The position numbers and the translations under genes were made by a program. A DNA stretch of 64,000 nucleotides from Leptotrichia wadei (GTDB lineage Bacteria > Fusobacteriota > Fusobacteriia > Fusobacteriales > Leptotrichiaceae): positions 1,426,001 to 1,490,000 of the forward strand of contig NZ_AP019841.1 of the NCBI RefSeq assembly GCF_007990445.1, given 5' to 3'. The notes below the pieces were generated by a model, which saw only the letters and a program-made list of their open reading frames with translations, was not told where the DNA came from and made no database searches. Every line of letters starts with the position of its first letter. Position 1 is the first letter of the stretch. Shown one piece after another: positions 49,302 to 54,132 of the stretch.

Positions 49302-49329
49302 TTGACTTTTATTTTAAATATGATATACT
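49302..49329 (+). promoter_or_regulatory. Promoter of the convergent antisense RNA
   Basis: TTGACT (49302-49307), a 16-bp spacer, TATACT (49324-49329). It faces the 3' end of the 40-aa peptide gene. Confidence 0.6.
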
Positions 49330-49335
49330 ATTATT

Positions 49336-49392
49336 GTAATTAAATTCAATAATAGTCAAAGCCCTTTGTTATTGGGGCTTATTTTTTTTATC
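49336..49392 (+). ncRNA. Candidate antisense antitoxin RNA
   Basis: From the promoter at 49302-49329 a transcript of about 55 nt is predicted. It ends in AAGCCC/GGGCTT (about 49359-49364 with 49375-49380) and a run of eight T. It lies across the stop codon and 3' untranslated end of the convergent 40-aa hydrophobic peptide gene. That convergent 3' overlap is the arrangement of Fst/par-type and related type I antitoxin RNAs. The role is inferred. Confidence 0.5.
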
Positions 49393-49491
49393 TTTTTTTT
49401 CATTTTTCCAGTTGATGTATTTTAATGTCCAAGTTATAATTGCTAATATTATAATTATTATAGACAATACTAACATTATTTTTTCAAACAT
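49369..49491 (-). CDS. 40-aa hydrophobic peptide, type I toxin-like
   Basis: ATG 49491 lies eight bases behind GAGGAG. The product is MFEKIMLVLSIIIIILAIIT followed by W-T-L-K-Y-I-N-W and a Lys-rich end KKDKKNKPQ. It has one membrane helix and a positive tail, which is the layout of Fst/TxpA/Hol-Tox type I toxins that damage the membrane. Checking each codon against the sequence confirms the frame. A short antisense RNA with its own promoter overlaps its 3' end, and a broken homologous copy lies 75 bp upstream. Family membership is by architecture; I do not recognise an exact relative. Confidence 0.55.
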   Translation of the reverse strand: MFEKIMLVLSIIIIILAIITWTLKYINWKNEKKDKKNKPQ

Positions 49492-49565
49492 ATTTTTTAC
49501 TCCTCTTTTAAATTAATAAATGTAGTGAAAAGGCCAGAGGGTTTGTTGAACCATAGCCCTTTTTG

Positions 49566-49677
49566 TTATTGGTCCTTATTTTTCTTGTGCTTTTGGTATT
49601 CTCTATACACTTCTAAAGCGAATTGCAAGATACTACAAATTGCAGCAAGTAAAAATATTTTTTCAATAATAGTCATT
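49566..49677 (-). pseudogene. Frameshifted second copy of the small hydrophobic peptide gene
   Basis: ATG 49677 behind AAAGGAGATAAAA opens MTIIEKIFLLAAICSILQF and then, through one extra C at about 49620, runs into TAG at 49603-49605 after 24 codons. The other frame would continue EVYREYQKHKKNKDQ to a TAA at 49566-49568. The repaired end KKNKDQ and the following CAATAACAAA-GGGCT match copy 1 (KKNKPQ, same 3' sequence), so the two are tandem duplicates. The 24-aa form keeps the hydrophobic helix and might still be made. Confidence 0.5.
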
Positions 49678-49707
49678 TTTATCTCCTTTCCATTTCACTA
49701 CAAATTT

Positions 49708-49737
49708 ATAATATCATAAAAATTATACCCAAATCAA
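49708..49737 (-). promoter_or_regulatory. Promoter of the small-peptide locus
   Basis: On the minus strand TTGATT (49737-49732), an 18-bp spacer and TATTAT (49713-49708). The 5' leader begins with GTAGTGAAATGG; a near copy, GTAGTGAAAAGG, occurs on the other strand at about 49522-49533, so the second copy is flanked by inverted repeats. Confidence 0.45.
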
Positions 49738-50678: not shown

Positions 50679-51803
50679 TTATTTATCTAATTTTTGATGT
50701 CGTGGACAATCTATCAAAAAACAGTCATATAAAAATTTAGGATAAATTTTTACTTCTGGTTTATAATCTGTTTTCAAAATTTTCTCATACTCCGCCTTCA
50801 AATTCTTTATTTGCCTTTTTATCTCCCTAATTTCTTCTTTTTTCTCAGATTTTGTCCACTCTCTTTTAAATTCTCCATTTTTAACATCCTCTATTTCTTC
50901 ATTTTTAAATTTCAATGCTTTCTCAAAAGATTTTTCTAATTTATCAAATTTATTTAATCGCTTTAATGAATAAAAATAAATTGGTAGTTCCTCATATGGT
51001 ACTTGGCAATCCTTTTGAGCGTCTATTTTTAAATAAATTTCTACAAGTTTTTTATAATTCTCAGATAAATAATACAGACTTTCTAAATCACTACAAAAAA
51101 AATAATTATTATCAATATTTTCTAACATTAATTCATTAATTTGAGCCTCAATATTTACAAATTCCTTCAACTGAACCTTATTCGCAATATAAATATACTT
51201 TATCTTAGCAAAATCTTCTTTTTCAAATTCAAAATCTTTTTTTATTAATTCTTCTAAAATTATTTTCGCCTCTTTATATTTTCCATTAATCATCAGCAAA
51301 TTTGCATATTCAAACTTATAAATTGGATTATTTTCTAATTCACAAGCTCTTTTATACATTTCTTCCGACTTATCATATTTCCCAGCACCATAATAATCCG
51401 CCCCAAGCCCATAATAAGCCTTTGAATTATTTGGATTAAATGCAACAGCCTTTCTCAAAGTTCTAATTGCTCTCTTACTGCCATATCTCTGATCATCATA
51501 ATAAAAACCTAAATTAGTATAAATCCGTGATTTTTCCTCATTAGTCAATTCATTTTCATATTTTTTAATAAATTCATTCAATAATTTATAAATATCATCC
51601 CATTGATAAGTTAATTCATTGTAAACTGCCGCTAATTGACAAATAACTTCAACATTTTTGGGATTTTCTTTCAATTTATTTTCCAAAAATATTTTATACT
51701 CTTCATAAACAGAATCATAATCACTATTATTTCTAATTTTTTCTTGAATATATTTTATCCATTCTTTTACCGTTTTTCTTTCTAAATTTTTTTGTTTTTC
51801 CAA
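50679..51803 (-). CDS. TPR protein, third of three tandem paralogs
   Basis: This encodes 374 aa from a TTG at 51803 that sits five bases behind AGGAGGAAAA, giving MEKQKNLERKTVKEWIKYIQ. It is made of helix pairs of tetratricopeptide type (RTLRKAVAFNPNNSKAYYGL, then GADYYGAGKYDKSEEMYKRA). It shares with its two upstream neighbours the start pattern with the Y-K-x-x-L-E-x-K stretch and the end C-F-L-I-D-C-P-R-H-Q-K-L. It has no signal peptide, so it is cytosolic. It begins 8 bp after the previous gene, so the three form one transcript. Role unknown; binding of partner proteins is likely. Confidence 0.65.
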   Translation of the reverse strand: MEKQKNLERKTVKEWIKYIQEKIRNNSDYDSVYEEYKIFLENKLKENPKNVEVICQLAAVYNELTYQWDDIYKLLNEFIKKYENELTNEEKSRIYTNLGFYYDDQRYGSKRAIRTLRKAVAFNPNNSKAYYGLGADYYGAGKYDKSEEMYKRACELENNPIYKFEYANLLMINGKYKEAKIILEELIKKDFEFEKEDFAKIKYIYIANKVQLKEFVNIEAQINELMLENIDNNYFFCSDLESLYYLSENYKKLVEIYLKIDAQKDCQVPYEELPIYFYSLKRLNKFDKLEKSFEKALKFKNEEIEDVKNGEFKREWTKSEKKEEIREIKRQIKNLKAEYEKILKTDYKPEVKIYPKFLYDCFLIDCPRHQKLDK

Positions 51804-51811
51804 TTTTCCTC

Positions 51812-52948
51812 CTAACCTAACTTTTGATGTATTGGACAATCAACTAAATAGCAAGTTTTATACATTTTTTCTAAATTTATTTTTGTATTTTGAGGCTTAT
51901 AATTACTATTCATTATCTTTTTATATATCTCCAAAATCTTTTTTATTTCATTCTTTTCTTCTTCAATAAATTCATCAATCTCTTCTTCATTCCAGTATTT
52001 TTTGTCATAAATTTCTCCAACTTCAATTTTTTCAATATACTTATTATGTTTTTGAATCAATTCTGACAATTTGTTTTCTGCTTTCTTAAAATTTCTTAAT
52101 TTTTTTAAACTGTAAAAATAAAATGAAAAACCCATATTATAATAAAAACGTTCTTCCCAGTCAAGTTCATCTATCTCTTTTTCAAAAACCAAGACACACC
52201 TATCGTATTCTTCAAATAAATAATATAAGTCTATAAGTTCTTCAAATAAAATTTGCTCATCATAATAATATTTCTCTAACGACACTTTCTCTAACAATTT
52301 ATCCAGAATTGGCTCAGCCAATTTTTTATCATTGGTATAATGTAAGCACAGTGCCAATGCATATAAAATTCCTGCACTTTCAGGTTCCTTTTCATAACAT
52401 CTCAATAACATTTCTTTCGCTTTTTCAAAATAACCACAATAAAACAACGTTATCCCATAATTATAATCATCTTCTATTTCCTTCTCATCTGAAAATTTTT
52501 CCATTTCCTGAAAACATTCAAGTGCCTTTTTGTATTTTTTTCTTTTTAAATAATATTCTCCCAATACTTCCCATACAACCACTGATTGTTTCCCCATTTT
52601 AATTAATTTTGTCAAATAATACTTACACATTTTATCATCATAAGCATCTTTTTCATATAAATCAGCCAAATCCTGATAAATAATAGCCTTCTCATCATCA
52701 TTTAAATCTTTTGAATATTTTTTCAAAAACTCCTCTAATACATTCACACTCGTTTTTCCATCTTGATACACCGTAAAATAAGCTATCGCTAATTGACATA
52801 CCTTTTCTACATCTCGCGGATTTTTCAAAAGATATTTCTCTAAATAATCCTTATATTCAATAAATGCATGCTTATAATTATCATAACTATCATTTTTTTG
52901 AATTTCATCCTGAATATATCTCGCCCACTCTTCTTTTGTTTGTTTCAT
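51812..52948 (-). CDS. TPR protein, second of three tandem paralogs
   Basis: This encodes 378 aa from ATG 52948 behind AAAGGAATAAAATT, opening MKQTKEEWARYIQDEIQKND. TPR-like helices cover most of the length (YLKRKKYKKALECFQEMEKF; NYGITLFYCGYFEKAKEMLL). The C-terminus CYLVDCPIHQKLG carries the same Cys-x-x-x-x-Cys-Pro-x-His pattern as its paralogs. It overlaps nothing and is separated by 8-23 bp from both neighbours. No family name is recognised. Confidence 0.65.
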   Translation of the reverse strand: MKQTKEEWARYIQDEIQKNDSYDNYKHAFIEYKDYLEKYLLKNPRDVEKVCQLAIAYFTVYQDGKTSVNVLEEFLKKYSKDLNDDEKAIIYQDLADLYEKDAYDDKMCKYYLTKLIKMGKQSVVVWEVLGEYYLKRKKYKKALECFQEMEKFSDEKEIEDDYNYGITLFYCGYFEKAKEMLLRCYEKEPESAGILYALALCLHYTNDKKLAEPILDKLLEKVSLEKYYYDEQILFEELIDLYYLFEEYDRCVLVFEKEIDELDWEERFYYNMGFSFYFYSLKKLRNFKKAENKLSELIQKHNKYIEKIEVGEIYDKKYWNEEEIDEFIEEEKNEIKKILEIYKKIMNSNYKPQNTKINLEKMYKTCYLVDCPIHQKLG

Positions 52949-52971
52949 AATTTTATTCCTTTCGTATTTCT

Positions 52972-54132
52972 TCAATCCTCATCAATTACCAAATGTTGTG
53001 GACAATCTGCCATCCAGCATTCATATTTAAAAAACATTGTTATTTCCATCTTAGGCTTAAAATCTGTATTTAATATTTTTTCCGATACTAAATTAATATT
53101 CGCCAATCTCTTTTTTTCATCTTCTATCATTTCCAAAAGCTCTTCTTCCGTTGTATCTTTCTGATATTCTTCATCAGTCTTCATTTCTTCAATATTTTGT
53201 AAAATTTCTTTTTCAGCTTTTTTCACTATTTTATTTATTTTTTCAAATTTTCTTAATTGCTTTAAGGAATAAAGATACGGTGCTATGGAATTCGCTTCTA
53301 AATAAAAATTACTTTTATCTGCATATTTACAATATTTTTCATAATTATCGCATAAATAAAATAAATCTTTTATTACATCTTCATCAAACGTGTGAAAACC
53401 TTCATACGTCAACCAATTCAAATATTTTTCATAATCTGTTTTCTCCAGCATTTCAAACTCTTTTATTTTTTCCAAAAGTTTTTCTATATTTTCAGTATCT
53501 TTATTTCCTAAATAAATTTTACAAAGGACCCTGTAAAAATGATATTTAATGTTGTTTGAGTCTCCCATTAACAAATTATCTAAAATTTTTTCAGCTTTTT
53601 TATATTCTTTATTTTGAATTAAAATCAGTGCATATCCATAACTATATTTCGCTTCATCACTCATTTTGCAGGCAATTTCTATATTTTCAAGAGATTTTTG
53701 ATACATTTTAACATGAAAACAAATACCTGCAAGTCTGTAATAAATGTCTGCATTATTTGAATTAATTTTTATTGCTTTTTCAAGATAATCAATAGCCTTT
53801 TCTTCCATACATCCCCTATCTTCACACAAATAAGCCAAATCAGCATACATTCTAAACTTTTCATCTTCTGTTAAAATATCAAAATTCCTTTTCAAAAATG
53901 TTTCTAAAATTTCTATACCGTCGCATTTCCTGCTCAAATAGCAAACTCCCGCCAACTGACAAACGACTGAAACATCCTCAGGATTTTTTACAGTTTCCTT
54001 TAACAAGTATTTCCTATAATTTTCAAGTGCAACATCATATTCTGTTCTGTCTTCATTTTCCAATTTTTCCCATATTTTATAAATATATTTTTTCATACCT
54101 TCATTCAATTTAACTTCAATATCCAATTTCAT
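52972..54132 (-). CDS. TPR protein, first of three tandem paralogs
   Basis: This encodes 386 aa from ATG 54132, although GGGAG lies directly before it and a TTG at 54126 has better spacing. The start is more divergent (MKLDIEVKLNEGMKKYIYKI), but the rest aligns with the two downstream genes: KNPEDVSVVCQLAGVCYLS against NPRDVEKVCQLAIAYF and NPKNVEVICQLAAVY. TPR units follow (AIDYLEKAIKINSNNADIYY). It ends CWMADCPQHLVIDED, with the same C-x-x-x-x-C-P-x-H motif. Its position is first in the three-gene unit. Confidence 0.65.
   Translation of the reverse strand: MKLDIEVKLNEGMKKYIYKIWEKLENEDRTEYDVALENYRKYLLKETVKNPEDVSVVCQLAGVCYLSRKCDGIEILETFLKRNFDILTEDEKFRMYADLAYLCEDRGCMEEKAIDYLEKAIKINSNNADIYYRLAGICFHVKMYQKSLENIEIACKMSDEAKYSYGYALILIQNKEYKKAEKILDNLLMGDSNNIKYHFYRVLCKIYLGNKDTENIEKLLEKIKEFEMLEKTDYEKYLNWLTYEGFHTFDEDVIKDLFYLCDNYEKYCKYADKSNFYLEANSIAPYLYSLKQLRKFEKINKIVKKAEKEILQNIEEMKTDEEYQKDTTEEELLEMIEDEKKRLANINLVSEKILNTDFKPKMEITMFFKYECWMADCPQHLVIDED

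Follow-up and report, generated by a model that had tools for sequence, protein, structure and literature searches.

A par/Fst-like candidate type I toxin-antitoxin locus with two small membrane peptides in Leptotrichia

In a 64,000-nucleotide stretch of the Leptotrichia wadei chromosome, hereafter the window, we examined a compact locus that very probably represents a type I toxin-antitoxin system of par/Fst-like design, enlarged to encode two small membrane peptides. The case rests on conservation, co-variation, pairing potential and relics in the sequence. An initial annotation had proposed a type I toxin-antitoxin-like locus in which a convergent antisense RNA overlaps ORF1. Such a locus is well supported, but the best-supported regulatory target is ORF2 rather than ORF1: a direct repeat that co-evolves at its two sites is predicted to pair the antisense RNA with the ORF2 start. 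The predicted elements are collected in Table 1.

Table 1. Coordinates of the features at the locus, numbered from the first nucleotide of the window
Feature	Position	Strand	Basis
Antisense promoter TTGACT-16-TATACT, extended -10 (TG before -10)	49302-49329	+	sequence scan
Predicted antisense antitoxin RNA, about 54 nt	49336-49389	+	prediction and conservation
Direct repeat copy 2, antisense RNA recognition segment, TTCAATAATAGTCA	49345-49358	+	comparison and pairing
Antisense intrinsic terminator, hairpin 49359-49380 then eight T; overlaps ORF1 stop	49359-49390	+	
Antisense terminator loop UUUGUUAUUGG; also matches sequence after ORF2	within 49359-49390	+	
ORF1, hydrophobic peptide of 40 codons with a Lys tail; putative second toxin	49369-49491	-	
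ORF1 Shine-Dalgarno GAGGAG, eight bases 5′ of ATG	49500-49505	-	
Hairpin region behind ORF2, holding anti-SD CCCUC and UUUCACUAC arm	49522-49560	-	
Anti-SD CCCUC, predicted partner of ORF2 Shine-Dalgarno	49537-49541	-	
Sequence at and just past ORF2 stop, CCAATAACAAA; complementary to antisense terminator loop	49562-49572	-	
ORF2, hydrophobic peptide of 36 codons; likely the main toxin and the target of the antisense RNA	49566-49676	-	
Direct repeat copy 1, ORF2 start-codon region, TGACTATTATTGAA	49662-49675	-	
ORF2 Shine-Dalgarno GGAG (within AAAGGAG), predicted paired with anti-SD CCCUC	49683-49686	-	
5′ UTR arm GUAGUGAAA of predicted long-range helix with 49522-49530	49693-49701	-	
Two-peptide operon promoter TTGATT-18-TATTAT	49708-49737	-	scan and conservation

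Two peptide ORFs and their conservation

ORF1 with its Shine-Dalgarno sequence, the antisense promoter and the antisense hairpin followed by eight T's are all present as the initial annotation had described them, and the antisense terminator and predicted RNA do overlap the ORF1 stop and 3′ end. The hydrophobic helix and Lys-rich tail reported for ORF1 were borne out as well: the peptides have a hydrophobic segment and a basic tail. What had been taken for a "tandem, frameshifted copy" is instead the intact ORF2 (MTIIEKIFLLAAICSILQFALEVYREYQKHKKNKDQ), which is in frame in all six genomes that carry it. Convergent promoters for the toxin mRNA and the antisense RNA were both found and are conserved, and four of the six genomes have an operon promoter that matches TTGACA-17-TATAAT perfectly.

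We searched 33 genomes of the family and found the tandem ORF2-ORF1 pair in six of 13 Leptotrichia genomes. The antisense gene accompanies the pair in 6 of the 13 and on one provirus contig. Joint conservation of ORF1 and the antisense gene had been named beforehand as a check; the two occur together in the six genomes, with ORF1 changes biased to codon position 3, as they also are in ORF2. dS was computable for the G014-G011 pair, and dN/dS there was 0.07/0.32 for ORF2 and 0.16/1.45 for ORF1, ratios that are rough for such short sequences. A search of 98 genomes of the phylum produced a convincing ORF2 in no further genome; a match in G076 was judged to be chance, and one in G017 (L088) contains internal stops.

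Aligned as profiles, ORF1 and ORF2 show a weak similarity (hhalign probability 74, E 2.8e-5), and ORF1 may be a second peptide that is weakly related to ORF2. Neither peptide matched a toxin family in Pfam, NCBIfam or PHROGs at a meaningful score, and neither has a PXXXG motif or an Fst sequence match. The Fst Pfam model (PF13955) gave nothing over its cut-off in the 13 Leptotrichia genomes, and it is a weak probe, with 0 of 14 controls passing. The TxpA/RatA and BsrG/SR4 toxin families were likewise unmatched in Pfam, NCBIfam and PHROGs, apart from a sub-threshold YxzE match to ORF1. Two further matches to ORF1 were rejected as effects of composition, the helix being rich in Ile and the tail charged: Pfam Vpu (E 5.8e-6), which drops to E 0.0046 with the G008 orthologue, and an MPN207a-family protein in NCBIfam (E 2.3e-7, below cut-off). 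Solved structures offered no useful match to either peptide, nor did viral contigs searched with ORF1, or phages and plasmids searched with the locus DNA and the ORF2 protein. Rfam recognized only one tRNA in the whole window. The earlier statement that no sequence relative is known thus holds for characterized toxin families, but relatives exist across the genus.

Antisense pairing and the predicted mechanism

The predicted antisense RNA carries, in its 5′ part, 14 nt that exactly complement the opening codons of ORF2, and it does so in each of the genomes. Three haplotypes of this repeat occur: the window and its sister have TGACTATTATTGAA, G014 has TGACAATAATCGAA, and G011, G007 and G008 share TGAACATAATCGAA. 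Every substitution is mirrored at both sites, one of them coding and the other non-coding. Exact 14-nt complementarity arose in 23, 0 and 2 of 20,000 dinucleotide shuffles. Cognate duplexes between the antisense 5′ part and the ORF2 start have predicted energies of -14.9, -16.3 and -16.3 kcal/mol, against -2.4 to -10.5 kcal/mol for non-cognate haplotype pairs, and none of 2000 composition shuffles was as good as any cognate duplex. Pairing at the ORF1 start is no better than in shuffles (1258 to 1998 of 2000 as good). ORF1 has no repeat-type target at its start, and its 3′ end is overlapped in cis by the antisense RNA. A second contact is predicted between the terminator loop and the sequence after the ORF2 stop, at -24.7 to -25.3 kcal/mol in four genomes; it is weaker in the window and its sister (-12.6 to -15.6 kcal/mol). 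By these sequence comparisons, the antisense recognition sequence has co-evolved with its target at the ORF2 start. Gene conversion between the repeats could help explain their identity, but as a sole cause it fails to explain why one copy always lies on the start codon. As part of a wider reading, the recognition repeat may diversify such that co-resident copies and relics avoid cross-regulation, a tentative suggestion that we rate as slightly less likely than not.

A predicted pairing of the ORF2 5′ UTR (GUAGUGAAA...GGAG) with a segment behind ORF2, CCCUC...UUUCACUAC, would mask the Shine-Dalgarno sequence. In other genomes, GUAGAGAA pairs with UUCUCUAC, which amounts to one compensatory T-A to A-T change. 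Folds of the ORF2 unit are more stable than those of shuffles (z of -3.5, -2.5 and -4.0), and the long-range helix was equalled in stability by 7, 22 and 177 of 2000 shuffles. The Shine-Dalgarno sequence is masked in most genomes when the ORF2 unit is folded alone, and variably so in the full transcript. We rate this modeled fold as plausible only, since the probability of the helix varies among the six full bicistronic transcripts (0.99, 1.0, 0.70, 0.02, 0.06 and 0.58). The shared hairpin has a U-tract on the antisense strand only, leaving the toxin strand without one. The bidirectional terminator of par is absent from the locus; relatives have a separate mRNA terminator downstream.

These features suggest the following model. 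One minus-strand mRNA would carry ORF2 and then ORF1, and the short convergent plus-strand RNA would be the antitoxin. Its unstructured 5′ part would pair with the ORF2 start-codon region through the 14-nt repeat, its terminator loop would pair past the ORF2 stop, and the two contacts together would block ORF2 translation. The 3′ end of ORF1 is fully complementary to this RNA as well, and the bicistronic mRNA would be paired there and probably cleaved. Folding of the ORF2 5′ UTR and Shine-Dalgarno sequence onto CCCUC...UUUCxCUAC behind ORF2 is predicted to add further masking. Should the locus be lost, the RNA antitoxin would decay, the mRNA would be freed, and membrane damage by the peptides would follow. 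The parts of this model that we infer are transcription and toxicity, the decay of the RNA, what happens to ORF1, and selfish maintenance. In this model, ORF2 and ORF1 probably form a two-peptide operon that a single antisense RNA would control.

The role of ORF1 admits two other readings. In a sub-case of the two-peptide explanation, weighed without being exclusive of it, ORF2 is the sole toxin and ORF1 is a non-toxic immunity-like or modulating peptide, or a spacer. The direct repeat lies on ORF2 only and sister genera have a single toxin (see below), which fits this sub-case; but ORF1 has its own conserved Shine-Dalgarno sequence, is under purifying selection, shares the hydrophobic-plus-basic design and aligns weakly with the ORF2 profile, and we consider the sub-case rather unlikely. 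Conversely, ORF1 could be the sole toxin, controlled through 3′ overlap as in TxpA/RatA or BsrG/SR4, with the upstream ORF a decayed copy. The antisense RNA does overlap the ORF1 stop and 3′ end as this would need. However, ORF2 is intact and constrained in 6 of 6 genomes, and the recognition segment co-varies with the start of ORF2 and not with ORF1, making the proposal very improbable.

Relics, genomic sites and sister genera

Further copies came to light with a covariance model for the antisense gene. G002 has a copy at the chromosomal site that the locus occupies in the window (L007:1420-1600); its ORF2 start and ORF1 have been deleted, and the antisense promoter, repeat and terminator are kept. 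This copy is an apparent orphan antitoxin. Across much of the genus there is a shared relic in which the operon promoter is fused to the ORF1 3′ half and the antisense region. These toxin-less copies are L070 (G000:C1:1023664-1023749, in the window's own genome), L059, L069, L071, L061, L072, L062, L064 and L073. The relic lies beside a small conserved gene beginning MEDIIKKVNEFSKLAREREL, which we take to be DUF896-like. Its long conservation raises the question of a function for the remaining RNA. In G014, a toxin-less copy (L068) sits immediately upstream of an intact copy (L003) and has a different repeat haplotype. Loss of the toxin with retention of the antisense gene is the remnant that one would expect of a toxin-antitoxin locus.

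Intact loci occur at three kinds of site: beside purD, after rpsI-like ribosomal genes, and between phage tail and baseplate genes. Near the locus in the window, three consecutive related minus-strand genes of about 386 codons each (50679-54132) are TPR-like by appearance, and genes related to them are found on the flanks of the locus in G016 and G002 as well.

Two sister genera of the Leptotrichiaceae have what by sequence are canonical single-toxin par-like architectures. The locus in G022 (L065:1350-1610), to which a weak model hit pointed, encodes a single 33-aa peptide, MILHILLEVFISIISNLLVYFIILLIKRRNRRK. It has a start-codon repeat, a local 5′ hairpin and a bidirectional terminator, together with a convergent promoter, TTGACT-17-TATAAT. 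In G017 (L093:1460-1690), the peptide MSYIMTEVFINILSSLIVYFIIKLIEKNRDKN, a 58% identical relative, is accompanied by an exact 15-nt start-codon repeat, a bidirectional terminator and a 5′ hairpin. Since these loci are canonical par, par logic appears to be present in the Leptotrichiaceae, and the window locus reads as a two-peptide version of it.

The prophage baseplate context in several genomes, together with a weak match of one ORF2 variant to the holin family phrog_920 (E 0.0035), could instead point to a phage- or mobile-element-borne lysis or bacteriocin-like pair with an incidental antisense RNA. We find this highly unlikely: the antisense repeat co-evolves, other copies occupy chromosomal sites beside purD or rpsI, and a transporter or immunity gene is absent from the short flanks examined. 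As for element predictions as such, pattern counts gave 20 promoter-like sites where 12.9 ± 3.5 were expected, and two terminators where 0.5 were expected; such counts are weak by themselves in an AT-rich region, and it is conservation that establishes the elements. Chance ORFs and promoters in AT-rich intergenic DNA, a reading to which the only modest excess of promoter-like sites lends itself, can hardly account for the locus, being contradicted by conservation, constrained reading frames and mirrored substitutions.

Comparison with known systems

In TxpA/RatA and BsrG/SR4, an antisense RNA overlaps a small membrane peptide gene at its 3′ end, and start-region direct repeats are not known from these systems. 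The locus resembles them in the antisense overlap of the ORF1 3′ end; it differs in having a start-region repeat, and we found no sequence relation. The initial annotation had invoked an Fst/par and TxpA/RatA architecture, of which par/Fst was the good pointer, the predicted contacts being par-like start pairing plus a terminator loop and not only 3′ overlap.

In the par/Fst scheme, the antisense RNA pairs at the start codon and through the terminator loop (PMC7472228). Like par(pAD1)/Fst of Enterococcus and other Firmicutes, the locus would have a toxin mRNA and a short antisense RNA that converge, direct repeats over the toxin start codon, a second pairing at the terminator loop, repeats that differ between loci and match within a locus, a small hydrophobic peptide with a charged tail, and both mobile and chromosomal sites. 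Unlike par(pAD1)/Fst, it has two peptide ORFs instead of one, a single repeat instead of the DRa/DRb pair, a toxin strand without a terminating U-tract, no Fst match or PXXXG motif, and predicted masking from behind ORF2 where par uses a local 5′ stem-loop. By these comparisons, the locus is par-like in its mechanism and not a demonstrated member of the Fst family.

The yonT/yoyJ-SR6 system of Bacillus subtilis SPbeta is, according to its authors, different from other type I systems investigated (PMC5848175), and it was the only two-toxin, one-antitoxin type I case that we found described in the open-access literature. The sequence arrangement of our locus would fit it functionally: one predicted antisense RNA would act on two putative toxin genes of one operon by two mechanisms, a 3′ overlap with one and a start-region contact with the other. 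The toxins are unrelated, however, and SR6 is encoded between its two target genes; the antisense gene of the present locus sits at the far end, from where it would reach the first gene through the direct repeat. With aapA/IsoA of Helicobacter and hok/sok (PMC6733600), the locus may share a 5′-3′ interaction, predicted here, in which a downstream anti-Shine-Dalgarno sequence masks the toxin ribosome site. It differs from those systems in having the pairing partner between two ORFs and in the position of the antisense gene, and only some of the genomes are predicted to form the fold.

According to a 2025 paper, type I systems are on record only from Proteobacteria, Firmicutes, Tenericutes and, as a new addition, Cyanobacteria (PMC12390103). 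We found no report of one from Fusobacteriota in the open-access literature searched, outside which a report may exist. The locus would add a phylum to the type I systems, would show par logic working with unrelated peptides, and would have a two-toxin, one-antitoxin arrangement that is rare. Its matched repeats, differing between genomes, are a ready-made specificity test, and the toxin-deleted relics could show how a cassette decays or turns into anti-addiction RNAs.
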